A stretch of DNA of 64,000 bases. Origin: Bordetella sp. FB-8 (lineage in GTDB: Bacteria; Pseudomonadota; Gammaproteobacteria; Burkholderiales; Burkholderiaceae_B). Shown one piece after another: positions 52,130 to 64,000 of this stretch. A model generated the notes under the pieces. The model was not told the DNA's origin and did no database searches. It worked only from the letters and a program-made list of their open reading frames with translations. Position numbers and translations under genes: made by a program. How positions within the stretch are numbered: the first letter of the stretch is position 1; each line of letters opens with the position of its first letter. The stretch spans positions 372,001 through 436,000 of the forward strand of contig NZ_KB907784.1 in the NCBI RefSeq assembly GCF_000382185.1. Reading direction: 5' to 3'.

Positions 52130-52603
52130 ATGACCGTAAAGTCTTCCTCTCCCGCCGCCCCGCTGCGCTTCACGCAAGCCGAGCTGGACATGCTCGCCAA
52201 GACGGCCGACGCCTTGACGGCGTACCTGGGCCGTCCGGTGCTGGCCGAAGTGGACACGGACGAAGACGGCGCCGAATGGGTCACCTTCGGCTCGACGCTG
52301 GACGAAAAGGACAAATCCGCCGCGGACGAAGACCGCCTGCATGTGCATCTGGGCGGCAAGGAAGCGCGTCTCCTGGGCCAGAGCGGCGGCCTGCCCGAAA
52401 GCGCCGACGCCTACGACTGCCTCTATCTGCTGGCCATCCAACTCTCTGCCAACGAAGGCGAACGCTTCGTCAAGATCGACAGGGACGGCGAAGAAAGCGC
52501 GTGGTCGGACGTACTGGCCGAAGTACTGCCCTTCTCGCTTGAAGAGGAAGAACTGCCGCCGCTGGAAGACGACGAGGACGAGGACGAGGACGACCAAGCC
52601 TGA
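52130..52603 (+). CDS. Acidic hypothetical protein
   Basis: A 157-residue soluble protein that I do not recognise. The N-terminal half predicts a mixed alpha/beta domain (FTQAELDMLAKTADALTAYL), and the last 20 residues are almost all Asp and Glu. It begins 7 bases after the exporter stop and so is probably in that operon. Its stop converges on the MarR gene. It has no signal peptide, Cys pair or known motif. Confidence 0.7.
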   Translation: MTVKSSSPAAPLRFTQAELDMLAKTADALTAYLGRPVLAEVDTDEDGAEWVTFGSTLDEKDKSAADEDRLHVHLGGKEARLLGQSGGLPESADAYDCLYLLAIQLSANEGERFVKIDRDGEESAWSDVLAEVLPFSLEEEELPPLEDDEDEDEDDQA

Positions 52604-52622: not shown

Positions 52623-53096
52623 TCATTCGGGCGGCAGCGCGTGCGACATCATCAAGGTCCGCAGCATCTGCATCAATTCCGCGGCGCGCGCCTCGCCCAG
52701 GGGCTGCAGCACCGCCCTCTGATGCTGCATCGCCTGCCGGCATAAGACCTCGACCAGTCGGCCTCCCTTGGCCGTCAAGGAAACGCGCGTCTGGCGCCGA
52801 TCCGCACGCACATCGGTGCGCGCCACCAGGCCGTCGACCGCCATGCGCTGCACCACCTTGCTCAGCGTGGGCTGCTTGGTGACGGTATGAAAGGCCAGCT
52901 CGCCTATCGTCATGCCGCCGCCGCTGCTGCACAGGCTGCTCAGCACGCGCCATTGCGTCACCGATAGACCGGCCTCGTGGGCCTGGACATGGAATTCAGC
53001 CGAGATGCTGTGGCTCACCTGCGCCAGCAGATAGGGCAGATAGCCGTCAATGAACGAAGGCATCGGATTCACGTCCTGCTGCGCACCGTGTTCCAT
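52623..53096 (-). CDS. MarR-family transcriptional regulator
   Basis: A 157-residue winged-helix dimeric regulator: GLSVTQWRVLSSL (recognition of the family's helix 2), GELAFHTVTKQPTLSKVVQR (HTH) and the wing RADRRQTRVSLT. MarR repressors are released by phenolic or aromatic acids. It is divergent from the oxidoreductase/dioxygenase operon, with a 190-base AT-rich spacer holding a 14-bp palindrome, so it probably represses that operon until its aromatic substrate appears. ATG 53063 is an alternative start. Confidence 0.9.
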   Translation of the reverse strand: MEHGAQQDVNPMPSFIDGYLPYLLAQVSHSISAEFHVQAHEAGLSVTQWRVLSSLCSSGGGMTIGELAFHTVTKQPTLSKVVQRMAVDGLVARTDVRADRRQTRVSLTAKGGRLVEVLCRQAMQHQRAVLQPLGEARAAELMQMLRTLMMSHALPPE

Positions 53097-53209
53097 CCGT
53101 GTTTACCCTTACGAATCACGAAAAAGTGCACGGAAAGAACAAGAGCGGTGCATCATTTCTCGCATGGATAACGAGTATATACACCCTTGTTTTACCGAGA
53201 TAATTTTTT

Positions 53210-53223
53210 ATTTTCATGAAAAT
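53210..53223. promoter_or_regulatory. Perfect 14-bp palindrome, candidate MarR operator
   Basis: ATTTTCATGAAAAT is a perfect palindrome that sits 12 bases before the presumed -35 element of the catabolic operon. MarR dimers bind symmetric AT-rich sites of about this size. Confidence 0.5.
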
Positions 53224-53235
53224 TCATCTTTTTAA

Positions 53236-53264
53236 TTGACATCTAAAAAGTTGACTCCTAAAGT
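53236..53264 (+). promoter_or_regulatory. Likely sigma-70 promoter of the catabolic operon
   Basis: TTGACA (53236-53241) and TAAAGT (53259-53264) are spaced by 17 bases, a close fit to the housekeeping promoter. A GGGAG ribosome-binding sequence and the ATG at 53287 follow, so the leader would be short. Confidence 0.55.
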
Positions 53265-53286
53265 AGTTTTCCGGGAGAAAAAAATC

Positions 53287-55578
53287 ATGGCTGAGCGATC
53301 GTTCAAGAAAGAAGTCGAGCAACTGCGCATCGGCGCCGGCGAGGAGTTCCGCGGCGAAGGCATTCTTGCCATCACCAAAGCGCTGCTGCAATCGGGCGTC
53401 GCCTATGTGGGCGGCTACCAGGGCTCGCCCATCTCGCACCTGATCGACGTGCTCTCGGATGCCAACGACATCCTCGAAGAGCTCGGCGTGCACCTGGAAA
53501 CCAGCGCATCCGAGGCCACGGCGGCGGCCACGCTGGCCGCCTCGGTCATGTATCCCATCCGCGGCGCGGTGGCGTGGAAGTCCACCGTGGGCACCAATGT
53601 GGCTTCCGACGCGCTGGCCAACCTGGCCTCCGGCGGCGTCACGGGCGGGGCGGTGGTGATCGTGGGCGAGGACTACGGCGAAGGCTCCTCCATCATGCAG
53701 GAGCGCACTCACGCCTTCGCCATGAAGTCGCAGATGTGGCTGCTCGATCCGCGCCCCAACCTGGAAACCATGGTCAAGTCGGTCGAGGACGCCTTCGAGC
53801 TTTCCGAGGCCAGCAACACCCCTGTGATGATGCAGGTGCGCGTGCGCGCCTGCCATGTGCACGGCCGCTTTATCGCCAAGGACAACAAGCGCCCCGCCTA
53901 CACCCTGGCCCAGGCCATGGAATCGCCCCGGCGCGACCTCAGCCGCATCGTGCTGCCGCCGGCCGCCTATGCGCACGAGCACGAAAAGGTCAAGACCCGC
54001 TGGCCCGCCGCGATCGAGTTCATCAAGGCGCGCAAGCTCAACGAGTTCTTCGACGGCGACATGCGGGACATCGGCCTGATCGTGCAGGGCGGCGTCTACA
54101 ACAACGCCATCCGCGCGCTGCAGCTGCTGGGCCTGGCCGACCACTTCGGCAACAGCCGCGTCCCGCTGTACGTGATGAACGTGGTCTATCCCGTCATTGA
54201 CAGCGAAATCGTCGCGTTCTGCCGCGACAAGAAAGCCGTGCTGCTGCTCGAAGAAGGCCAGCCCGACTACCTCGAACAGAACATCCACGCCATCTTGCGC
54301 AAGGCGGACATTGCCACGCCCCTGTGGGGCAAGAATGTCCTGCCCATGGCCGGCGAATACACCACCACCGTGCTGCGCAGCGGCGTCGAGGCTTTCCTGA
54401 AGCAATGGAAGCCCGAAGCCCTGCACGCGCACCGTGCCGTGGCCGCCGACGCGCAAGCAGCTGACAAAGGCCCGCACGCCGCGCCTGGCGGCTTGCTGCC
54501 CCCCGAGGGGACCGCTTCCGCCTTGGGGCAGCCCGGCGGCGAAAATCAAGCCGAGATCACCGAGGTCTCGCGCCCGCGCCCTGCCGAGCAGCCCATCACG
54601 CTGCACAAACGCATCGCCGATCTGGCCAGGGTTGTGCCGCAGCGGCCTGCAGGCCTGTGCACGGGCTGCCCGGAACGGCCCATCTTCTCGGCCATCACGC
54701 TGGCGCAGGAAAAACTGGGCGAACACCACATCAGCTGCGACATCGGCTGCCACCTGTTCTCCATCCTGCCGCCCTTCAACCTGGGCGCCACCACGATGGG
54801 CTACGGCCTGGGCGCGGCTAGCAATTCGGCCTTCAACATCAAGGGCGCCAAGCGCGCCATCTCCATCATGGGCGACGGCGGCTTCTGGCACAACGGCCTG
54901 ACTTCCGGCATCGGCAACGCGGTGTTCAACAAGTACGACGGCGTCATCGTCATCGTCGACAACTACTATTCCTCGGCCACCGGCGGCCAGGACATCCTGT
55001 CCTCGCGCGCACAGAACGCGACGCGCGTCACCAACAACCCCATCGAGGCCGCGGTGCGCGGCGTGGGCGTGGCATGGCTGCGGGTCATCGACCACACCTA
55101 CGATGTGACCCGCGCGCGCGCCATCCTCGAAGAGGCGCTCACCACCGACGCCGCCGGCCCCAAGGTCATCATTGCGCAGTCCGAATGCATGCTGAACAAG
55201 CAGCGCCGCGTCAAGCCGGCCTTCAACAAGGCGGTCAAGGAAGGCAAGCGCAGGGTCAAGGAGCGCTTCGGCGTGGACGCCGACGTGTGCTCGGGCGACC
55301 ACGCCTGCATCCGCCTTTCCGGCTGCCCCTCGCTGTCGCTCAAGGACAGCGGCGATCCGCTCAAGGTCGACCCCGTGGCCTCGGTGGACAGCAGCTGCGT
55401 GGGCTGCGGCAATTGCGGCGAAGTCGCGGACGCCGCCGTGCTCTGCCCATCGTTCTACCGCGCCGATGTCGTGCACAACCCCACCAAATGGGACCGCTAC
55501 GCCGCGCGCGCGCGCGGCGCGGTCATCGGCTTTCTGCAGCGCCGCCGCGCGGCCCGGCTGGCCCGCTACGCGCTGTAA
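53287..55578 (+). CDS. Indolepyruvate:ferredoxin oxidoreductase-like alpha subunit
   Basis: A 763-residue 2-oxoacid:acceptor oxidoreductase alpha subunit. The N-terminal pyrimidine-type domain (EGILAITKALLQSGVAYVGG) is followed by a transketolase-C-like domain. The TPP-binding part is GDGGFWHNGLTSGIGNAVFN with DNYYSSATGGQD, and the C-terminal ferredoxin-like Cys set includes CSGDHAC and CVGCGNC...CP. Such enzymes decarboxylate aryl 2-oxoacids to acyl-CoA. The joint between halves (residues 395-420) is an insertion encoded by a dispersed DNA repeat. It is the first gene of the operon, and no dedicated ferredoxin gene is nearby. The substrate could be an aryl-glyoxylate. Confidence 0.85.
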   Translation: MAERSFKKEVEQLRIGAGEEFRGEGILAITKALLQSGVAYVGGYQGSPISHLIDVLSDANDILEELGVHLETSASEATAAATLAASVMYPIRGAVAWKSTVGTNVASDALANLASGGVTGGAVVIVGEDYGEGSSIMQERTHAFAMKSQMWLLDPRPNLETMVKSVEDAFELSEASNTPVMMQVRVRACHVHGRFIAKDNKRPAYTLAQAMESPRRDLSRIVLPPAAYAHEHEKVKTRWPAAIEFIKARKLNEFFDGDMRDIGLIVQGGVYNNAIRALQLLGLADHFGNSRVPLYVMNVVYPVIDSEIVAFCRDKKAVLLLEEGQPDYLEQNIHAILRKADIATPLWGKNVLPMAGEYTTTVLRSGVEAFLKQWKPEALHAHRAVAADAQAADKGPHAAPGGLLPPEGTASALGQPGGENQAEITEVSRPRPAEQPITLHKRIADLARVVPQRPAGLCTGCPERPIFSAITLAQEKLGEHHISCDIGCHLFSILPPFNLGATTMGYGLGAASNSAFNIKGAKRAISIMGDGGFWHNGLTSGIGNAVFNKYDGVIVIVDNYYSSATGGQDILSSRAQNATRVTNNPIEAAVRGVGVAWLRVIDHTYDVTRARAILEEALTTDAAGPKVIIAQSECMLNKQRRVKPAFNKAVKEGKRRVKERFGVDADVCSGDHACIRLSGCPSLSLKDSGDPLKVDPVASVDSSCVGCGNCGEVADAAVLCPSFYRADVVHNPTKWDRYAARARGAVIGFLQRRRAARLARYAL
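54468..54541. repeat. Dispersed GC-rich repeat inside the alpha-subunit gene
   Basis: The copy runs from CCCGCACGCCGC through GCTGCCCCCCGAGGGG to GCCCGGCGGCG and is read in frame as the peptide PHAAPGGLLPPEG and following residues. It has the same block order as the copies at 34412 and 61615. Here the repeat adds a Pro/Gly/Ala linker between the two halves of the protein. Confidence 0.75.
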
Positions 55579-55598
55579 GCAAGGATCTGGACCTCATC

Positions 55599-57164
55599 AT
55601 GGATTCCACGGCAAACCTGATTCCCTCCAACCCGATCAAGATCGCCGTGCTGGCCATGGGCGGCCAGGGCGGCGGCGTGCTGGCCGACTGGATCGTCGAC
55701 ATGGCCGAGCATGCCGGTTGGTGGGCGCAGACCACCTCGGTGCCCGGCGTGGCGCAGCGCACCGGCGCCACCATCTATTACCTGGAAATCGTGCCAGCCG
55801 AGGACATCGCGCGCGCCGGCCACGGCCCGACGCTGGCGCTCATGCCCACGCCCGGCGACGTCGACCTGATCGTCGCAGCCGAGCTGATGGAAGCCGGCCG
55901 CGCCATGCAGCGCGGCCTGGTCACGCCCGACCGCAGCGTGCTCATCAGCTCCTCGCACCGCAGCTACGCCATCGACGAGAAGACCGCGCCCGGCAACGGC
56001 ATCGCCGATCCCAACAAGGTAATAGAGGTCGCCCGCGATGCCGCCAAGCGCTTCATCTGCTTCGACCTGCAAGCCACCGCGGAGAAAGCCGGCAGCGTGA
56101 TCAGCGCCAGCCTGTTCGGCGCCATCGCCGGCAGCAAGGCCCTGCCCTTCACGCGGGACGAATTCGAAGCCACCATCCGCCGCGCCGGCGTCGGCGTCGA
56201 GGCCAGCCTGCGCGCCTTTTCGCTCGGCTTGGACGGCGCCGCCAATGCGCCGGCCAGCGCCCCCTCCATCGATCTCACCCACCCCGAGCCCGACGTCCCC
56301 ATGGCGGCCTCGAACAAGCGCGTGCAGGCGCTGCTGGACCGCGTGCACACCGGCTTTGCAGCGCAGGCCCGCCCCATGCTGGTGGCCGGCCTGCGCCGCC
56401 TGATCGACTACCAGGACCTGGCCTACGCCCATGAATACCTCGAACACATGGCCACCATCCACCAGCTCGATGCGCAGTACGGCGGCGAGACAGCGGACTG
56501 GGCGCTGACCCGCTCGGCCGCGCGCTACGTGGCCGTGGCCATGAGCTACGACGACGTCATCCGCGTAGCCGACCTCAAGACCCGCGGCGCACGCTTTGCG
56601 CGCGTGGGACAGGAAGCCGGCGTCAAGGAAGGGCAGCAGCTCTACATCGTCGACTTCATGCATCCGCGCCTGGAAGAAATCTGCGGCACCCTGCCCACGA
56701 AAATGGGCCGCTGGCTGGAAAACGCGCCGCTGGGCAAGTTCATCGAACGCCGCCTGGTCCGAGGCAAGCGCCTGCAAAGCGGCAAACTCCTGGGCTTTCT
56801 CTCGCTCTATTGCATGGCTGGCATGCGCCGCTGGCGCCGCGGCACGCTGCGCCATCAATCCGAAGCGGCCAGCCTTGCGCAATGGCTGGCCCTGGTCGCC
56901 CGGATCGCGCCGCGCGACTATGCGCTCGCCGTCGAAGTGGTGGAGTGTCGCCGCCTGGTCAAGGGCTATAGCGACACCCATGTGCGCGGCGGCGGCAAGT
57001 ACCGCACCCTGATCCAGACCGCCGAAGCAATGCTGGGCCGCCCCGACGCCGCGCAGGCCGTGCGCGAACTGCGCGCCACGGCACTGGCCGAGGTCCAGTG
57101 CGCCCCGCTGGAACGCCAGGCCGCCGAAAAACTGCACCCCCCCTCGGCCGCCAGGACGGCCTGA
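55599..57164 (+). CDS. Indolepyruvate:ferredoxin oxidoreductase-like beta subunit
   Basis: A 521-residue protein. The N-terminal 200 residues are the gamma/beta domain of 2-oxoacid oxidoreductases (VLAMGGQGGGVLADWIVDMA, QRTGATIYYLEI). The C-terminal 300 residues form the helical DUF6537-type extension seen in aerobic bacterial IorB. The start at ATG 55599 lies 20 bases after the alpha subunit. Together the two would make a heterodimer handling an aromatic 2-oxoacid. Confidence 0.8.
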   Translation: MDSTANLIPSNPIKIAVLAMGGQGGGVLADWIVDMAEHAGWWAQTTSVPGVAQRTGATIYYLEIVPAEDIARAGHGPTLALMPTPGDVDLIVAAELMEAGRAMQRGLVTPDRSVLISSSHRSYAIDEKTAPGNGIADPNKVIEVARDAAKRFICFDLQATAEKAGSVISASLFGAIAGSKALPFTRDEFEATIRRAGVGVEASLRAFSLGLDGAANAPASAPSIDLTHPEPDVPMAASNKRVQALLDRVHTGFAAQARPMLVAGLRRLIDYQDLAYAHEYLEHMATIHQLDAQYGGETADWALTRSAARYVAVAMSYDDVIRVADLKTRGARFARVGQEAGVKEGQQLYIVDFMHPRLEEICGTLPTKMGRWLENAPLGKFIERRLVRGKRLQSGKLLGFLSLYCMAGMRRWRRGTLRHQSEAASLAQWLALVARIAPRDYALAVEVVECRRLVKGYSDTHVRGGGKYRTLIQTAEAMLGRPDAAQAVRELRATALAEVQCAPLERQAAEKLHPPSAARTA

Positions 57165-57186
57165 TCGTCCTCACGAAAGCCACGCC

Positions 57187-58149
57187 ATGCATACCCTCAA
57201 GCTCATCGTCCGCGAAGTCCGCCAGGAATCCCCCCTGATCCGCTCCTTCCGGCTGGAAAGCGCCGACGGCGGTGTCCTGCCGGCCTACAGCCCCGGCGCG
57301 CACATCAAGGTCCAGGTACCCGGCCTGCACGATCCGCGCAACTACTCGCTGATCAATACCGGCAGCGAACCCTTCGGCGCCCCCGCGCAGTACCGCCTGG
57401 GCGTGCGCCTCGAAGAAAACAGCCAGGGCGGCTCGCGCTACATGCACGCGCTCAAAGTAGGTGAGGTCATCACCGCACAAGGCCCGGCCAATGAATTCCC
57501 CCTGGCGGACCATCCCGGCAGCACCGTGCTGATCGCCGGCGGCATCGGCATCACGCCCATCGCCAGCATGGCGGCCTCGCTCGCCAGCAAGGGCAGCCAC
57601 TACACCCTGCACTACAGCGGCCGCAGCCGGAGCCAGCTGGCCTTCGTCGACGCGTTGCGGGCGCTGGCCGGCGACAGGCTGGTCATCCACGCCGACGACG
57701 ACCCTGACTCGGCCTTCCATCTCGATGCCCTGCTCGACGCCGCCCCAGCCGGCGAACACGTCTACGTGTGCGGCCCCAAAGGGTTGATCGACGCGGTCAT
57801 CGCCGGCGCGAAAGCGCGCGACTGGGACAGCAGACGCGTGCATTTCGAACTCTTCACCGCTGCCGTGCCGCAGGCCGGCGACGGCGCCTTCGAGGTCGAT
57901 CTCAAGCAATCCGGCAAGGTGTTCACCATCCCCGCCGACAAGACCATTCTTGAAGTGCTCGAAGAAGCCGGCTGCGATCCCATGTACGACTGCAAGCGCG
58001 GCGAATGCGGGGTCTGCCAGGCCACCGTGCTCGAAGGCACGCCCGACCACCGCGACTACTACCTGTCCGAGGCCGAAAAAGCCAAGGGCAATGTCATCCA
58101 GATCTGCGTCTCGCGCGCCAAGTCGGGCCGCCTGGTGCTGGATCTGTAA
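57187..58149 (+). CDS. Flavin/[2Fe-2S] oxygenase reductase
   Basis: A 320-residue reductase of the phthalate dioxygenase reductase type. An N-terminal flavin domain with RNYSLINTG, an NAD domain with AGGIGITP and VYVCGPKG, and a C-terminal plant-type [2Fe-2S] domain (CKRGECGVC, then a fourth Cys in IQICVS). It passes electrons from NADH to the Rieske oxygenase encoded next, so no separate ferredoxin is needed for that enzyme. Confidence 0.92.
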   Translation: MHTLKLIVREVRQESPLIRSFRLESADGGVLPAYSPGAHIKVQVPGLHDPRNYSLINTGSEPFGAPAQYRLGVRLEENSQGGSRYMHALKVGEVITAQGPANEFPLADHPGSTVLIAGGIGITPIASMAASLASKGSHYTLHYSGRSRSQLAFVDALRALAGDRLVIHADDDPDSAFHLDALLDAAPAGEHVYVCGPKGLIDAVIAGAKARDWDSRRVHFELFTAAVPQAGDGAFEVDLKQSGKVFTIPADKTILEVLEEAGCDPMYDCKRGECGVCQATVLEGTPDHRDYYLSEAEKAKGNVIQICVSRAKSGRLVLDL

Positions 58150-58170
58150 GACGTATCGAGGAGCCATCCC

Positions 58171-59496
58171 ATGCCTGAGCCCACCTACCGCGGCAATCCC
58201 CAGGCCATCCGCGACCTGGTGCAGGACACGCAGGTCCACAAGGACCTGTTCATCAGCCAGGAGCTCTACCAGATCGAGATGGAGCGCCTGTTCGCCGTGA
58301 CCTGGGTCTACGTGGGCCACGAAAGCCAGGTACCCAAGCCCGGCGACTTCTACACCACCACCGTGGGCGACCAGTCGGTGATCATGGTGCGTCACGGCGA
58401 CCAGAGCATTCGCGTGCTGTACAACCGCTGCGCCCACAAGGGCGTGCAGGTCGCGCCCGAGGGCCACGGCAACACCGGCAAGTTCTTCCGCTGCCCTTAT
58501 CACGCCTGGACCTTCAAGACCGACGGCAGCCTGCTGTCGGTGCCGATCAAGAAAGGCTACGAAAATACCGGATTCGATGACATGGAAGCCAGCCGGGGCC
58601 TGGAGGCGGTAGCTGCTGTGCGCAACTACCGCGGCTTTGTCTTCTGCCGCCTGAGCGCGACCGGCGAATCCTTCGAGGACTTCTTCGGCGAATCGCTCAG
58701 CACCCTCGACAATATGGTCGACCGCTCGCCCGAGGGAAAGCTGGAGGTAGCCGGCGGCGTGCTGCGCTACATGCACCGCTGCAACTGGAAGATGCTGGTC
58801 GACAACCAGACCGACACCTGCCACCCCATGGTGGCGCATGAATCCTCGGCGGGCACCGCGGTGCGCGTCTGGCAGGAGGCGCCCGAAGGCACGCCCAAGC
58901 CCATGGCCGTGGAACTTTTCGCGCCCTTCATTTCGCCCTATGAGTTCTACGAGAACACCGGCATCCGCGTCTGGAAGAACGGACACGGCCATACCGGCGT
59001 GTCGGGGTCGATCCACTCCAACTATTCGCACATTCCCGGCTATTGGGATTCGATGGTCGCCGCCTACGGCGAAGAGCGCGCACAACAGATCCTGGGCGAA
59101 ACGCGGCACAACACCATTTTGTTCCCGCACATTATGGTCAAGGGCCCCATCCAGATCCTGCGCATCTTCAGGCCGCTGGCGGCCGACCGCACGCTGGTGG
59201 AATCGTGGACCTTCCGTCTGGTGGGCGCTCCCGACATGCTGCTCGAGCGCACCACCATGTATAACCGCCTCATCAACGCGCCGACCTCCATGGTCGGACA
59301 CGACGACCTCGAAATGTACGAACGCGCCCAGCAGGGCCTCTCGCACGCGCGCACCCGCGATTGGGTCAACGTGGCTCGCCTGCTCGAACCCGGCGAGACC
59401 GGGCGCGAGAACGAAGTCGTCAACGGCACCAGCGAAGGGCAGATGCGCAACCAGTACCGCGCCTGGGCCCGCTATATGACGGAGGGCGCGAAATGA
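58171..59496 (+). CDS. Rieske aromatic-ring dioxygenase, large subunit
   Basis: A 441-residue oxygenase alpha subunit. The Rieske ligands are C87, H89, C108 and H111. The mononuclear iron is bound by H218 and H223 with bridging D215, in NQTDTCHPMVAH; a further Asp ligand lies in the C-terminal half. The presence of a beta subunit and a PDR-type reductase places it with benzoate/anthranilate-like or indole-acid dioxygenases. It overlaps the beta subunit gene by ATGA. The substrate is not determined. Confidence 0.93.
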   Translation: MPEPTYRGNPQAIRDLVQDTQVHKDLFISQELYQIEMERLFAVTWVYVGHESQVPKPGDFYTTTVGDQSVIMVRHGDQSIRVLYNRCAHKGVQVAPEGHGNTGKFFRCPYHAWTFKTDGSLLSVPIKKGYENTGFDDMEASRGLEAVAAVRNYRGFVFCRLSATGESFEDFFGESLSTLDNMVDRSPEGKLEVAGGVLRYMHRCNWKMLVDNQTDTCHPMVAHESSAGTAVRVWQEAPEGTPKPMAVELFAPFISPYEFYENTGIRVWKNGHGHTGVSGSIHSNYSHIPGYWDSMVAAYGEERAQQILGETRHNTILFPHIMVKGPIQILRIFRPLAADRTLVESWTFRLVGAPDMLLERTTMYNRLINAPTSMVGHDDLEMYERAQQGLSHARTRDWVNVARLLEPGETGRENEVVNGTSEGQMRNQYRAWARYMTEGAK

Positions 59497-59984
59497 GCCG
59501 CACCGACCAACAACTCGTCGCCTTCGTCTATCGCGAAGCGCGTCTGATCGACGAGCAAAAATTCGACGATTGGCTCGATCTCTACAGCGATGACGCCTGG
59601 TACTGGATGCCGCTCACGCACGGCCAGCCCGACGCGCGCCTGCACACCTCGCTGATGCACGAGAACAAGCTGCTTTTGCGCGTGCGCGTCGAACGCCTGG
59701 CCGGGCAGCGCACGTTCTCGCAGCAGCCCAGGAGCCGCTGCCATCATCTGCTGCAGATGCCGTCCATCGAAACCGGCCACGCCGAGCACCGGCCCGAGCA
59801 AGGCTGCTATGTCACGCGCACGGCGTTCCATTACGTAGAGACGCGCGGCGACGAGCAGGTACTGTATGCCGGCTGGGCCACGCACCACCTGGCCGAGGAA
59901 GACGGCCAGCTGAAAATCCGCTTCAAACAGGTCGACCTGGTGAACTGCGAAGCGGCCTTCGGCAATATCCAGCTTTTGATGTAA
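59493..59984 (+). CDS. Aromatic-ring dioxygenase, small subunit
   Basis: A 163-residue beta subunit of the SnoaL-like/ring-hydroxylating fold: EARLIDEQKFDDWLDLYSDD at the N-terminus is the family hallmark. It supports the alpha3beta3 assembly and has no redox centre. ATG 59493 overlaps the alpha-subunit stop. The acyl-CoA ligase gene follows after 16 bases. Confidence 0.9.
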   Translation: MSRTDQQLVAFVYREARLIDEQKFDDWLDLYSDDAWYWMPLTHGQPDARLHTSLMHENKLLLRVRVERLAGQRTFSQQPRSRCHHLLQMPSIETGHAEHRPEQGCYVTRTAFHYVETRGDEQVLYAGWATHHLAEEDGQLKIRFKQVDLVNCEAAFGNIQLLM

Positions 59985-60000
59985 GACGGTATCCAAGGGA

Positions 60001-61713
60001 ATGTCTGTGAGCGCCAAAACGGTTTACGAGGTTTTTTGCGGCACCGCTGCCAAGTGGGGCAAGAATCCTTTCCTGTGTGTCCTGCCCGAAACCGCCGAGG
60101 CCTACGGCATCTTGGCCGGCGAACTGAGCTACGCCGACGCGCTGGTTCGCATCGATCGCCTGCGCCAGGCCTACGCCGCCGCGGGCTACGGCCACGGCCA
60201 TCGCGTAGGCCTGCTGCTGGAGAATCGCCCGGCCTTTTTCCTGCACTGGTTCGCGCTGAACGCGCTGGGCGTGTCCGTCGTGCCCATCAATGCCGATCTG
60301 CGCGCCGCCGAACTGGAATACCTGATCGGCCATTCCGAACTGATCCTGGCCGTAGCCCTGCCCGAGCGGCATGCCGGCCTGAAACAGGCCGCGCAGCGCG
60401 CCGGCCGGCCGCTGCAGGCCGTCGGCGCGGACGACGCGCCCCCGCCCGCGCTGACGCCCGCGCCGCTGGCCGGCCAGCCCCTAGGCACCGCCACCGAGTG
60501 CGGCCTGCTCTATACCTCGGGCACCACCGGCCGTCCCAAGGGCTGCATCCTCACCAACGAGTACTACCTGCAATGCGGCAACTGGTACGCCACGATCGGC
60601 GGCCTGTGCACATTGCGCGATGGCCAAGAGCGCATGATCACGCCCCTGCCCATGGTGCACATGAACGCCAAAGCCGTCTCGACCCTGGCCATGATCACCA
60701 CCGGCGGCTGCCTCATCGTGCTCGACCGCTTCCATCCCAAGACCTGGTGGGACAGCGTGCGCCGCTCGCGCGCCACCGTGGTCCATTACCTGGGCGTAAT
60801 GCCGGCCATTCTCATGAAGGCGGCCCCCAGCCCCGACGACCGCAGACACGAGGTGCGCTTCGGCTTTGGCGCCGGCGTCGAGCGCTCGCTGCATGCCGCC
60901 TTCGAAGAACGCTTCGGCTTTGCGCTGATCGAGGCCTGGGCCATGACCGAGACCGGCAACGGCGCAGTCATCGGCGCCACCCGGGAACCGCGCTTCGTGG
61001 GCAGCAGCAGCATCGGCACGCAGGAGCCCGATGTCGAGGTGCGCATCGTGGCCGAGGACGGCCAGGATGCCGCCGTCGGCGCACCCGGCGAACTGCTGGT
61101 GCGCCACGCGGGCGACAACCCGCGCTTCGGTTTCTTTGCCGGTTATCTCAAAGATCCGCAGGCCACCGACGAAGCCTGGGCGGGCGGCTGGTTCCACACC
61201 GGCGACCTGGTGCGCCGCGACGCCGACGGCATGATCCGCTTCGTCGACCGCAAGAAGAACGTCATCCGCCGCAGCGGCGAGAACATCTCGGCGGTGGAAG
61301 TGGAAACCCTCCTGCTCAACCACCCCCTGGTCAAGACCGTGGCGGTGGCCGCCGTGCCGGACGCCCTGCGCGGCGACGAGGTGCTGGCCTGCATCGTTCC
61401 CGAGTCCATGCCCGGCGATCTGACGGCGGCCGCGCGCGACCTGGTGCAATGGAGCCTGGGAGAACTGGCCTATTACAAAGTGCCCGGCTACGTGGTCTTC
61501 GTCGACGCCCTGCCGCTCACCACCACCAACAAAATCCAGCGCGGCGAGATGAAAAAGCTCGCGCCCACCTACCTGGGCCAGTCCAACTGCGTCGACACCA
61601 CCGCGCTCAAGAAACGCCCCCACGCCGCATCCGATGGACTCGCTGCCCCCCAAGGGGACCTTTCCGCTTCGGCGCGGCCCGGCGGCGCAAAGCGCCAGGA
61701 AGGGGCGCACTAA
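60001..61713 (+). CDS. AMP-dependent acyl-CoA ligase
   Basis: A 570-residue ANL-superfamily ligase: YTSGTTGRPKG (A3 motif, about 171-181), AWAMTETGNG (A5), FHTGDLVRRDADG (A7), RSGENISAVEVE (A8) and the catalytic Lys in TTNKIQRGEMKK (A10). It activates a carboxylic acid as its CoA thioester. The last 33 residues are a low-complexity tail encoded by the dispersed repeat, beyond the normal ligase end. The stop overlaps the next gene (TAATG). Confidence 0.9.
   Translation: MSVSAKTVYEVFCGTAAKWGKNPFLCVLPETAEAYGILAGELSYADALVRIDRLRQAYAAAGYGHGHRVGLLLENRPAFFLHWFALNALGVSVVPINADLRAAELEYLIGHSELILAVALPERHAGLKQAAQRAGRPLQAVGADDAPPPALTPAPLAGQPLGTATECGLLYTSGTTGRPKGCILTNEYYLQCGNWYATIGGLCTLRDGQERMITPLPMVHMNAKAVSTLAMITTGGCLIVLDRFHPKTWWDSVRRSRATVVHYLGVMPAILMKAAPSPDDRRHEVRFGFGAGVERSLHAAFEERFGFALIEAWAMTETGNGAVIGATREPRFVGSSSIGTQEPDVEVRIVAEDGQDAAVGAPGELLVRHAGDNPRFGFFAGYLKDPQATDEAWAGGWFHTGDLVRRDADGMIRFVDRKKNVIRRSGENISAVEVETLLLNHPLVKTVAVAAVPDALRGDEVLACIVPESMPGDLTAAARDLVQWSLGELAYYKVPGYVVFVDALPLTTTNKIQRGEMKKLAPTYLGQSNCVDTTALKKRPHAASDGLAAPQGDLSASARPGGAKRQEGAH
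61615..61687. repeat. Dispersed GC-rich repeat in the ligase tail
   Basis: The copy starts CCCCCACGCCGC, passes through GCTGCCCCCCAAGGGG and closes with GGCCCGGCGGCG. It is read as RPHAASDGLAAPQG at the ligase C-terminus. Relative to the copy at 54468 the middle is shifted by one base and read in another frame before returning to the same frame, which shows the relation is at DNA level. Confidence 0.75.
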
Positions 61714-62879
61714 TGGCGCGCCAGAGCTATGACGGCGTTGTTGCGGCCCTGCCCGTTACCATCCCCTACCAGCGCTATTCGACGCACGCGGCCCACGGGT
61801 GGCTGGGCCGCGCTTTGGGCGCGCTGGTGCGCCAGTCCGGCCTGCCCAAGGACGCCGTCGACGGGGTCTGCGTATCGAGCTTCACCCTCGCCCCCGACAC
61901 CGCCGTGGGCCTGATGCAGCATCTGGGCATGAGCCCGCGCTGGCTCGATCACATCCCCACCGGCGGCGCCAGCGGCGTGGTGGGCTTGCGCCGCGCGGCC
62001 CGCGCCGTGCAGGCGGGCGACGCCGACGTGGTCGCATGCATCGCGGGCGACACGAATCACGTCGACTCCTTCCGCAACACGGTCAGCCAGTTCTCGCGCT
62101 TCGCGCAGGACGGCGTGTATCCCTACGGCGCGGGCGGCCCCAACGCCAGCTTCGCGCTGCTCACGGCGCACTACATGCGCGCCTACGGCGCCACGCGCGA
62201 GGACTTCGGCAAGCTCTGCGTGGCCCAGCGCGAGAATGCAATGCGCTACCCGCACGCGCTCATGAAAAAGCCGCTGACGCTCGATCAATATCTGCAAGCA
62301 CGCGTCATCACCGATCCCATTCACCTGTTCGACTGCGTGATGCCCTGCGCCGGCGCCGAGGGGTTCCTGGTCATGGAAGAAAGGCGCGCCCGGGACCTGG
62401 GCCTGCCCTATGCCCGCATCCTGGGCACCATCGAACGCCACAATGCCTGGCACGAAGACCCCATCCAGACGCGCGGCGGCTGGACCATGGATGTGGACGA
62501 GCTGTATGCCCAGGCCGGCGCCGCGCCCGCCGACATCGACTTCATGCAGGCCTACGACGACTACCCCGTCATCAACTTCATGCAGATCGAAGATCTCGGT
62601 TTATGCGCCAAGGGCGAGGCGCCCGACTACGTGCGCCGCAACACCTTCACCGTGGACGGCACTCTGCCCTTGAACACCAGCGGCGGCCAGCTATCGGTCG
62701 GCCAGGCCGGCGCCGCCGGCGGCTACCTGGGCATGGTCGAAGCGCTGCGCCAGCTCAGCAACACGGCGGGTGGAACACAAGTGGCCGGCGCCCGCATCGG
62801 CCTGGTGAGCGGCTTCGGCATGATCAACTACGACCGCGGGCTGTGCACCGCGGCGGCTATTCTGGGGATTGCAAAATGA
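61713..62879 (+). CDS. Thiolase-fold protein lacking Cys/His, likely retro-aldolase
   Basis: A 388-residue protein of the SCP2-type thiolase family. The region that carries the nucleophilic Cys reads IPTGGASGVVGL with A86, and the GHP motif near the end reads SVGQAG with Gln331. With both catalytic residues gone, normal thiolysis is unlikely. Thiolase-fold proteins paired with DUF35 proteins, such as Ltp2, are retro-aldolases that cleave CoA-bound beta-hydroxyacyl side chains. The next gene begins with DUF35 and overlaps by ATGA, which supports that role. Confidence 0.85.
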   Translation: MARQSYDGVVAALPVTIPYQRYSTHAAHGWLGRALGALVRQSGLPKDAVDGVCVSSFTLAPDTAVGLMQHLGMSPRWLDHIPTGGASGVVGLRRAARAVQAGDADVVACIAGDTNHVDSFRNTVSQFSRFAQDGVYPYGAGGPNASFALLTAHYMRAYGATREDFGKLCVAQRENAMRYPHALMKKPLTLDQYLQARVITDPIHLFDCVMPCAGAEGFLVMEERRARDLGLPYARILGTIERHNAWHEDPIQTRGGWTMDVDELYAQAGAAPADIDFMQAYDDYPVINFMQIEDLGLCAKGEAPDYVRRNTFTVDGTLPLNTSGGQLSVGQAGAAGGYLGMVEALRQLSNTAGGTQVAGARIGLVSGFGMINYDRGLCTAAAILGIAK

Positions 62880-64000
62880 CGCAGGCCTTGCGCAATCCCC
62901 CCAAGAAAGACCCCGTCGCCCGCAGCCGCCAACCCACGCGCCCGCCGGGCGCGCGCAGCCGCAGCGCATTGGGCCTGACGGCCGCCGCGGCCGAGGGCCG
63001 CTTCGAATTGCAGCAATGCGCCGAGTGCGGCACCGTGCAGTATCCGCCGCGCGAAGTCTGCGTGCACTGCCTGTCCGAGCACTTGCCCTGGAAGCCCGTA
63101 TCGCCCCTGGGCAGCCTGCTGGTGAGCACGACCCTGCATCACAGCAACGACCTGTATTTCCGCGAACGCCTGCCCTGGCGCGTCGGCACCGTGCGCATGC
63201 AGGCCGGCCCGTCCGTGGTGGCCCACGTGCACGGCGACCTGGCCGACGGCGACGACGTCCGGCTGGTCTTGAAACTGGACCGCGCCGGCCAGGCCGTCAT
63301 GCTGGCCCTGCCAACCGAGAGCACCCCCAATATGGAAGACGACAAGATCCTGCGCGAAACCGCCTGCGACCCGAAGTTGCGCCGCGCGCTGGTCACCGAC
63401 GGCAAGTCGGCCGTGGGCATGGCCGTGACGCAAGCCCTGCTCGATGCGGGCGCCACCGAAGTCATCCTGGGTGACCCCCAGCTCTGGCGCAAGGTGCCGG
63501 CCTTCGAGAAGCTGGCGGCCGACCCGCGCATCAAAGTGGTCCCGCTGGATGTCACCGACACCGACTCGCTCGAGCGCGCCGCCGGCGAGTACGGCGGCAA
63601 GGTCGAGATCCTGGTCAACACCGCCGACATGGAACGCGAGGGTGGCCTGCTGCACGCCCGGGACGTCAACACCGCGCGCAATCTGTTCGACATCAATGTG
63701 CTGGGCATGATGCGGCTGGCCCATGCCTTCGGCCCGGCCCTGTGCGCCCGCGCCGCCGACGGCACGCGCAACGCCGTGGCCTGGGTCAACGTGTTGTCCA
63801 TCTATGCGCAGATGAACCTGCCGGCGCGCGCCGTCTGGTCGGCCTCCAAGGCGGCCGCGCTGTCGCTGGCGCAGGGGCTGCGCGCCGAGATGCGGCCTTC
63901 GGGCGTGCGCGTGCTCAATGTCTTTCCCGGCCCGCTCGACCACGAGTGGGAGCAACTGACGCCGCCGCCGCGCGTGGCGCCCAAGGCGGTGGCCCAGGCC
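62876..64000 (+). CDS. DUF35 zinc-ribbon/OB domain fused to an SDR domain (partial)
   Basis: The frame runs off the right edge (375 codons present). Residues 44-150 are a DUF35 unit: a zinc ribbon with C48, C51, C62 and C65 (CAEC, CVHC) followed by an OB-type barrel. From about residue 168 an SDR fold begins, but the cofactor loop reads VTDGKSAVGMA instead of TGxxxGxG, and the catalytic Tyr of YxxxK is Trp (W321 in WSASK). DUF35 proteins stabilise or activate thiolase-fold partners, here the preceding gene. The SDR domain may be a pseudo-enzyme or may have altered chemistry. Confidence 0.85.
   Translation, partial: MTQALRNPPKKDPVARSRQPTRPPGARSRSALGLTAAAAEGRFELQQCAECGTVQYPPREVCVHCLSEHLPWKPVSPLGSLLVSTTLHHSNDLYFRERLPWRVGTVRMQAGPSVVAHVHGDLADGDDVRLVLKLDRAGQAVMLALPTESTPNMEDDKILRETACDPKLRRALVTDGKSAVGMAVTQALLDAGATEVILGDPQLWRKVPAFEKLAADPRIKVVPLDVTDTDSLERAAGEYGGKVEILVNTADMEREGGLLHARDVNTARNLFDINVLGMMRLAHAFGPALCARAADGTRNAVAWVNVLSIYAQMNLPARAVWSASKAAALSLAQGLRAEMRPSGVRVLNVFPGPLDHEWEQLTPPPRVAPKAVAQA

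Follow-up and report, generated by a model that had tools for sequence, protein, structure and literature searches.

An iad-like locus of Bordetella sp. FB-8

The window analysed here, 64000 nucleotides from the 4.08 Mb genome of Bordetella sp. FB-8 (contig NZ_KB907784.1, positions 372,001 to 436,000 of the forward strand), carries near its 3' end an operon that, from its sequence, is almost certainly an iad-like locus for the degradation of indole-3-acetate (IAA). Loci of this kind are already published (PMC9613470, PMC10374108, PMC11630574 and the preprint PMC12633357). The MarR-family gene iadR is divergent from iadABCDEFGH (53287-64117 in gene models on the extended contig), with 20, 22, 21, -4, 16, -1 and -4 bases between successive genes from iadA to iadH (Table 1). 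Gene models and domain calls (Pfam and NCBIfam) bear out a preliminary description of the window, which had listed a divergent MarR gene and a "gapless" operon of an IorAB-like pair, a reductase, Rieske alpha and beta subunits, an acyl-coenzyme A (CoA) ligase, a thiolase-fold protein and a fusion of DUF35 with a short-chain dehydrogenase/reductase (SDR). "Gapless" is a fair word for spacings of -4 to +22 bases. The genes stand as listed, but the locus extends further than described: 1125 of the 1242 bases of iadH lie inside the window and its stop, at 64117, beyond the window end, iadI starts 109 bases past iadH, and a Liv-type binding-protein gene and transporter genes follow.

Other iad loci, among them those of Achromobacter, Bordetella and Azoarcus, have their genes in the same order, which is therefore not a product of chance. 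Among the best 80 of 399 loci, iadA or iadB (COG4231/COG1014), used elsewhere as exclusive markers of iad-type loci (PMC9613470), matched in 75 of the 78 that could be evaluated; both are present in the window (53287-57164). Six of 15 genomes of the genus, the source genome counted, have a close IadD, and the nearest named relative of IadD (92%) is in a Bordetella metagenome assembly. The divergent MarR gene, iadAB, iadCDE, iadF, iadG, iadH, iadI and the binding-protein gene are shared with the Variovorax paradoxus CL14/CL014 iad locus (PMC9613470, PMC10374108, PMC12633357). Sequence comparison with Variovorax covered IadD and IadR, and both are near in sequence and pocket.

Table 1. Features of the iad locus, in window positions; positions past 64000 refer to the extended contig.
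Feature	Position	Strand	Evidence
iadR, MarR-family repressor	52623-53096	-	closest solved relatives 7kki, 7kfo
Candidate IadR operator, palindrome ATTTTCATGAAAAT with imperfect inverted repeat	53210-53254		palindrome by eye, repeat listing
Sigma-70-like promoter	53236-53264	+	TTGACA-N17-TAAAGT
iadA, IorA-like alpha subunit, thiamine pyrophosphate (TPP) and ferredoxin-type domains, proposed isatinate oxidoreductase alpha	53287-55578	+	TIGR03336 below cut-off, linkage
iadB, IorB-like beta subunit with DUF6537, proposed isatinate oxidoreductase beta	55599-57164	+	NF006179, POR, DUF6537
iadC, reductase with C-terminal 2Fe-2S domain, putative electron donor of IadDE	57187-58149	+	Pfam domains
iadD, Rieske alpha subunit, IAA oxygenase by sequence	58171-59496	+	matches to 9o71 and 7yls
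iadE, Rieske beta subunit	59493-59984	+	PF00866
iadF, acyl-CoA ligase, proposed to activate dioxindole-3-acetate	60001-61713	+	PF00501/PF13193
iadG, thiolase fold, proposed retro-aldolase, YDDY at residues 281-284	61713-62879	+	Sal and Ltp2 matches
iadH, ChsH2/DUF35 fused to degenerate SDR	62876-64117 (window part to 64000)	+	PF12172, PF01796, PF00106
iadI, isatin hydrolase by best match	64227-65015 (extended contig)		5nna match
Liv-type binding-protein gene	65088-66236 (extended contig)		sequence after iadI

The probable IAA oxygenase and its regulator

By sequence, IadD is closest to the IAA-binding Rieske subunit. Among solved structures it matches 9o71, the Variovorax IadD (PMC12633357), at 613 bits and 7yls at 610 bits, against 165 bits for the best other Rieske enzyme. 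Identity to Variovorax IadD is 243 of 407 aligned residues (60%), all iron and iron-sulphur ligands are kept, and of the nine residues that PMC10374108 lists for the IAA pocket eight are unchanged, the exception being Leu211, here Gln213. IadE is assigned by Pfam alone. IadC is known in the window by its domains, and its likeness to phthalate dioxygenase reductase (PDR) comes from the structure of the Variovorax protein (PMC10374108). A second IadDE-like Rieske pair is found in the same genome (L105:4464-6272; alpha subunit at C1:1575983-1577272, 45% to IadD), adjoining what appear by eye to be genes of a peptide-type ABC (ATP-binding cassette) transporter.

Similarly, IadR is closest, in sequence, to an IAA-binding MarR protein. 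Its nearest solved relatives are 7kki (118 bits) and 7kfo (117 bits), the latter being MarR_73 (PMC9613470). In an alignment read by hand, five of the seven ligand-pocket residues named in that paper are identical; the three carboxylate binders Ser28, His32 and Arg46 of MarR_73 are kept as S32, H36 and R50, and the changes are Ala18 to Y22 and Val65 to His. The preliminary description had called for comparison of the Rieske alpha and MarR proteins with characterised relatives, and in both cases the closest belong to the Variovorax IAA locus, not to a system for an unrelated substrate.

Between iadR and iadA lies a perfect 14-base palindrome, ATTTTCATGAAAAT (53210-53223, seen by eye), which adjoins an imperfect inverted repeat (53224-53254); the listing of palindromes and repeats covered the window and, in addition, 12 further intergenic gaps. 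The promoter-like sequence overlapping this repeat agrees with the consensus at 10 of 12 bases, and shuffled sequences give a mean of 0.4 such sites. Palindrome and repeat together are a plausible candidate for the IadR operator, and the Variovorax repressor site is in the same intergenic gap (PMC9613470). On the other side of iadR, a gene at 52130-52603 is convergent with it at a distance of 19 bases and encodes a small protein that ends in a very acidic tail and has no match in Pfam.

IadF, IadG and IadH: a probable retro-aldol step

The best matches of IadG, by sequence and by predicted fold, are Sal (9myr) and Ltp2 (6ok1), of the Sal-Shy(DUF35) and Ltp2-ChsH2(DUF35) aldolases (mean predicted local distance difference test, pLDDT, of the IadG model 83.7); thiolases and SCP2-thiolase-like proteins come close behind in the fold search. 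Both catalytic cysteines of thiolases are absent. The place of the nucleophile, fixed through CtSal, whose Gly stands there, falls in a stretch that reads G84-G85-A86-S87 in 70/70 iad rows, the window included. The motif Y-D-D-Y (281-284) is likewise invariant in 70/70 rows. Tyr281 aligns with CtSal Tyr302, Asp283 with Cys304, and Gln326/Gln331 with Gln347/Gln352 (roles of the CtSal residues in PMC12329534). The catalytic Tyr of the YDxF/YDxY motif is therefore present, and the third motif residue is an Asp, neither the Cys of Sal (YDCY in CtSal) nor the His of Ltp2 (YDHF in TcLtp2).

Because its nearest solved relatives are DUF35 retro-aldolases and the thiolase cysteines are absent, IadG is probably a retro-aldolase, in keeping with the acetyl-CoA release that the preliminary description had proposed for its altered thiolase-fold protein. 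On the missing cysteines and the fold matches, a thiolase was rejected. Dioxindole-3-acetyl-CoA, a tertiary beta-hydroxyacyl-CoA, would fit as the substrate that such an aldolase splits to isatin and acetyl-CoA. With the steroid side-chain retro-aldolases Sal-Shy and Ltp2-ChsH2 (PMC12329534), IadG shares a thiolase fold without nucleophilic Cys, the catalytic Tyr and a partner that has both a zinc ribbon and an OB domain; its paired Gln is as in CtSal. It differs from these systems in that the DUF35 partner is fused to a degenerate SDR and that the substrate proposed is indole-derived, not a steroid. In the literature searched, with most subscription journals outside its scope, no report of a retro-aldol step in IAA degradation was found.

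The partner protein IadH keeps a zinc ribbon, C48-x2-C51-x10-C62-x2-C65, in 58/58 rows. In its SDR half, with positions set by the general SDR motifs, the catalytic Tyr is replaced by W or F in 55/58 rows and kept in 3. The TGxxxGxG motif reads TDGKSAVG in the window, so that most of the glycine motif is lost; the Pfam SDR score nevertheless exceeds its cut-off. In five loci (L037, L038, L048, L054, L057) just the DUF35 part of IadH was matched, and a sixth (L086) ends with its stretch. Alcaligenes locus L055 has about 400 bases between iadG and iadJ, space for DUF35 only. Thus the two fused domains of the preliminary description are present, but the SDR active site is degenerate and that half of the protein looks dead; a working dehydrogenase was rejected on the lost Tyr and glycine motif. 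For Variovorax, IadG is called a ketothiolase and IadH an alcohol dehydrogenase, roles inferred from annotation in the preprint that also gives the mutant phenotype of iadF (PMC12633357).

Loci L184 and L196 combine IadG-H-I with IadAB, and no close IadD lies on either stretch; the Rieske protein of L196 stands at 42%. The retro-aldol and isatin part may be a separate module.

IadI and the missing iadJ

IadI is an isatin hydrolase by sequence, matching isatin hydrolase 5nna at 382 bits. Kynurenine formamidase was rejected, the best such enzyme reaching 31.7 bits. Unlike the Variovorax locus, that of the window has no iadJ between iadI and the binding-protein gene, where 72 bases separate the end of one (65015) from the start of the other (65088). 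The gene is unmatched in the sister locus L148 too, and is matched in 62 of the 64 loci with 8.5 kb of downstream sequence. A whole-genome search for IadJ gave as best match a 50% homologue elsewhere (C1:2374216-2374917; L103:10201-10953), whose neighbours are uninformative. Deletion of iadJ in Variovorax lowers anthranilate and stalls the second oxidation (PMC12633357).

IadAB as a proposed isatinate oxidoreductase

IadA scores 269 bits against the alpha-subunit model of indolepyruvate ferredoxin oxidoreductase (IOR; TIGR03336), whose cut-off is 651. IadB has POR and DUF6537 domains and scores 691 bits against NF006179, above the cut-off of 348. The TPP motif GDG...DN of IadA is invariant in 52/52 ingroup rows, with Asp558 of the motif variable among 13 remoter rows, and the cysteines of the ferredoxin-type domain are kept in 65/65 rows. 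Thr503, Met504, Asp569 and Asn577 of IadA are marks of the clade. At the place where the second Cys of the first ferredoxin motif would be expected, IadA has Asp671 in 65/65 rows; the cluster is possibly Asp-ligated or three-iron. The IadA sequence gave no matches among solved structures and its profile seven weak ones, and its predicted structure has a mean pLDDT of 64 and a predicted template modelling score (pTM) of 0.55.

Two-subunit layout, TPP motif and ferredoxin-type cysteines are thus shared with IOR, whereas the score of IadA below the IOR cut-off, the DUF6537 tail of IadB and genome contexts pointing to isatinate set the pair apart; a plain indolepyruvate oxidoreductase was rejected on that cut-off and those contexts. 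In anaerobic aromatic degraders, phenylglyoxylate:acceptor oxidoreductase converts an aryl-glyoxylate and CoA to an aryl-CoA and CO2. The same kind of reaction is proposed for IadAB. The likeness is one of reaction type; the ortho-amino substrate and aerobic setting proposed here are different.

The available text of the four iad papers gives the pair no role. In the main text of PMC12633357 iadA and iadB have no occurrence, and the available text of PMC10374108 does not name them. They serve as locus markers and as the place of the repressor site in PMC9613470, and the available part of PMC11630574 mentions iadA nowhere but in the name of the locus and at the site of the repressor. Neither a role for IadAB nor an isatinate enzyme was found in the literature searched, which left out most subscription journals.

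IadAB in other genome contexts

The search for IadA covered three partly overlapping samples, of 229, 398 and 399 genomes, and homologues at E <= 1e-100 were found in 10, 29 and 48 genomes, respectively. From the listed places 89 loci were fetched, leaving out the window's own and fragment G981:C251; each was scored on its best IadA copy, with identity over matched parts only, and the shortened stretches L239 and L237 were counted as unlinked. Closer and remoter loci were divided at 59.5% IadA identity. The markers were an isatin hydrolase at >=45% and an AbmA-type monooxygenase at >=44% in the same stretch. The 49 loci above the cut comprise 13 that have iadD or iadG and 36 that lack both. 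Of these 36, 19 have one or both markers (11 hydrolase only, 3 AbmA only, 5 both), compared with 0/40 remoter loci. The Fisher p of 2e-8 for this linkage overstates the case, since the cut was set after the data had been seen and 8 of the 19 linked loci are from one genus. The genes can be contiguous: A-B-I in L164 and L172, I-A-B in L176 and the iad genome L152, and AbmA-B-A in L185. A check of one such hydrolase, from the 50% range, gave a match to isatin hydrolase B at 423 bits.

An IadA tree of 65 rows was made by a quick method from 53 of the 89 loci, with 12 iad rows added. Its 24 iad rows and 16 linked rows all fall, intermixed, in one branch of 52 rows (Shimodaira-Hasegawa-like approximate likelihood ratio test, SH-aLRT, 96), and well-supported branches force at least eight changes between the iad and linked labels. 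Because closer homologues are linked to isatin hydrolase and AbmA outside iad loci, action of IadAB on the aryl-glyoxylate isatinate is supported at the level of sequence, and with it the step that the preliminary description had assigned to the IorAB-like pair. That description had taken the retro-aldol and IorAB steps for the new elements, and at the level of sequence both hold up; the iad locus itself is already published.

Two further associations were seen. In 12 of the 19 linked non-iad loci, eight of them of one genus, isatin hydrolase and IadAB have one or two flavin adenine dinucleotide (FAD) oxidoreductases as neighbours (L171:4217-8572, with an amine-oxidase domain by Pfam; also L169, L170, L173, L177, L181, L182, L183, L185, L224, L225 and L226); these are a possible source of isatin. 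L197, L198 and L202 have remoter IorA-like genes (56-58%) with other Rieske genes nearby (35-38% to IadD), which suggests a parallel system for another substrate.

The abm cluster and a proposed CoA product

In its own genome, 1.6 Mb from the iad locus, FB-8 has genes for AbmA, a hydratase, a dehydrogenase and a benzoate-CoA-ligase-like protein (355 bits, slightly short of the 375-bit cut-off), a cluster called abm here after the 2-aminobenzoyl-CoA pathway. That pathway is named in PMC6221969. In a family sample of 121 genomes, AbmA (E <= 1e-150) was present in 44/44 IadD-positive (E <= 1e-120) and 25/77 IadD-negative genomes, which are related and not independent.

The ligase gene usually lies on the 3' side of AbmA. 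It was found in none of the 20 loci that combine AbmA with iadA or iadB in a single stretch, 16 of which extend 4.5 kb or more beyond AbmA on that side. AbmA stretches without iadA/iadB have it in 19/20, and the remaining one, L075, ends 107 bases past AbmA and was set aside; this control combined the own-genome locus, source of the query, with 18 of 69 AbmA-positive genomes, hand-picked across genera and avoiding AbmA beside iad. A CoA product of IadAB is proposed because IadA/IadB lie with a CoA-thioester monooxygenase and no ligase, and we consider it somewhat more likely than not, from these gene contexts, that isatinate is converted to anthraniloyl-CoA.

In Alcaligenes (L258, L259 and L043; L258 and L259 assigned by gene order and identities) a single gene run reads A, B, MarR, thioesterase-like, AbmA, gentisate-dioxygenase-like, nitrilase-like, I, C, D, and on to J. 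This order fits the indole-isatin-anthranilate-gentisate route of Alcaligenes In3, the last part of which is described as still to be elucidated (PMC6221969). A gentisate branch of indole degradation was proposed in 1983, and that paper treats it as unresolved.

Published Variovorax metabolites

Metabolite data for Variovorax bear on the route. According to the preprint, oxindole-3-acetate is not the first intermediate (PMC12633357), which counts against this part of the preliminary description. Two compounds, C8H7NO3 and C7H7NO, accumulate strongly only in iadC-K2 overexpressers (PMC12633357); by our own arithmetic these are the formulas of isatinate and 2-aminobenzaldehyde. The overexpressers were built in the HS33 deletion, which covers genes 77-53, and iadA is gene 72 (PMC9613470), so they should lack iadAB. 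Build-up of the two compounds without iadAB would agree with a use of isatinate by IadAB.

Proposed route and alternatives

In the proposed route, IadCDE would oxygenate IAA, and a second oxidation, by IadJ in Variovorax and by another enzyme here, would give dioxindole-3-acetate, from which IadF would make the CoA thioester. IadG, held by the DUF35 half of IadH, would cleave dioxindole-3-acetyl-CoA by a retro-aldol reaction to isatin and acetyl-CoA; Tyr281 would act as the base, and Asp283 would stand where Sal has its cysteine. IadI would open isatin to isatinate (2-aminophenylglyoxylate), and IadAB, a TPP and iron-sulphur enzyme, would turn isatinate and CoA into anthraniloyl-CoA by oxidative decarboxylation. 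Anthraniloyl-CoA would then enter the abm-type 2-aminobenzoyl-CoA pathway encoded 1.6 Mb away, and the anthranilate seen in cultures would be a side product or overflow. The account as a whole, with an iad locus, a retro-aldolase IadG and an IadAB leading to anthraniloyl-CoA, is judged moderately likely. Slightly favoured is the wider proposal that IadAB and its clade are CoA-acylating isatinate oxidoreductases, a portable module of auxin and other isatin-forming pathways, that together with a YDDY IadG and a pseudo-dehydrogenase half of IadH they make anthraniloyl-CoA the end of the iad route, and that the same cluster explains the Alcaligenes gentisate branch.

A number of observations weigh against this account. 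The cut at 59.5% was placed with the data in view, the 19 linked loci span 12 genera with eight in a single one, and 17 of the 36 closer non-iad loci have neither marker, several on short stretches. AbmA scores above the cut-off of NF006101, titled salicylyl-CoA 5-hydroxylase/oxidoreductase, so that a 2-hydroxy substrate is possible in abm-only contexts. Ten of the 16 ligase-less loci are of the Alcaligenes/Paenalcaligenes type, L173 and L184 have IadAB and a ligase-like gene (52 and 57%) in one stretch, and FB-8 itself holds such a ligase (L102), so that free anthranilate is also usable. The iadJ needed in Variovorax is absent. Variovorax cells with the HS33 deletion regain full anthranilate on receiving iadC-K2, without iadAB, so IadAB is not needed for anthranilate (PMC12633357), and overexpression confounds the comparison of C8H7NO3 and C7H7NO. 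Without IadI it is C8H7NO2, dioxindole by its formula, and not isatin that accumulates (PMC12633357), which points to a reduced product; we read it as isatin that other enzymes may have reduced.

Restored anthranilate speaks for the published scheme, in which IadG acts as ketothiolase and IadH as alcohol dehydrogenase and the product of IadI goes on to anthranilate, with IadAB dispensable or working upstream, for example from indolepyruvate to indole-3-acetyl-CoA. The preprint took the roles of IadG and IadH from annotation (PMC12633357), and IadAB carries indolepyruvate oxidoreductase annotations; the upstream feeding role is a suggestion of this analysis. This scheme appears unlikely, given an IadG without thiolase cysteines, an IadH whose SDR Tyr is lost in 55/58 rows and an IadA far below the IOR cut-off (269 against 651 bits). 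Linkage of IadAB to isatin hydrolase and AbmA without IadD or IadG would also be unexpected for an indolepyruvate enzyme. POR/IOR-type enzymes can release aldehydes, which counts for an IadAB that uses isatinate without CoA and yields 2-aminobenzaldehyde or anthranilate directly. The 2-aminobenzaldehyde formula, C7H7NO, was indeed detected in Variovorax, but strongly only in the iadC-K2 overexpressers that should lack iadAB (PMC12633357). A CoA product is also what the neighbourhood would need, IadA/IadB lying beside a CoA-thioester monooxygenase without ligase in 16/16 loci with enough sequence, and we regard the CoA-free reaction as improbable. Finally, the locus could serve mainly another indole or aryl acetate, such as a substituted auxin, with IAA as a side substrate: IadD is 60% identical to Variovorax IadD with the pocket change Leu211 to Gln213, and two of seven IadR pocket residues differ. 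With eight of nine IadD pocket residues and all three IadR carboxylate binders kept, and an isatin hydrolase in the same gene run, such a specialisation is very improbable.

Significance

The roles proposed here for IadG, IadH and IadAB depart from or extend the published Variovorax scheme (PMC12633357), and the retro-aldolase reading, if true, would correct the annotation-based assignment of IadG. If IadAB makes anthraniloyl-CoA, the iad pathway would differ in its end product, in its energy yield and in how it connects to the 2-aminobenzoyl-CoA pathway, and forming anthraniloyl-CoA straight from isatin would spare an ATP-dependent aryl-CoA ligase. Cassettes without iadAB, such as that of PMC12633357, should then leak isatinate, 2-aminobenzaldehyde and anthranilate. 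The Alcaligenes cluster, with its thioesterase-like and gentisate-dioxygenase-like genes, would in that case account for the gentisate branch of indole degradation.

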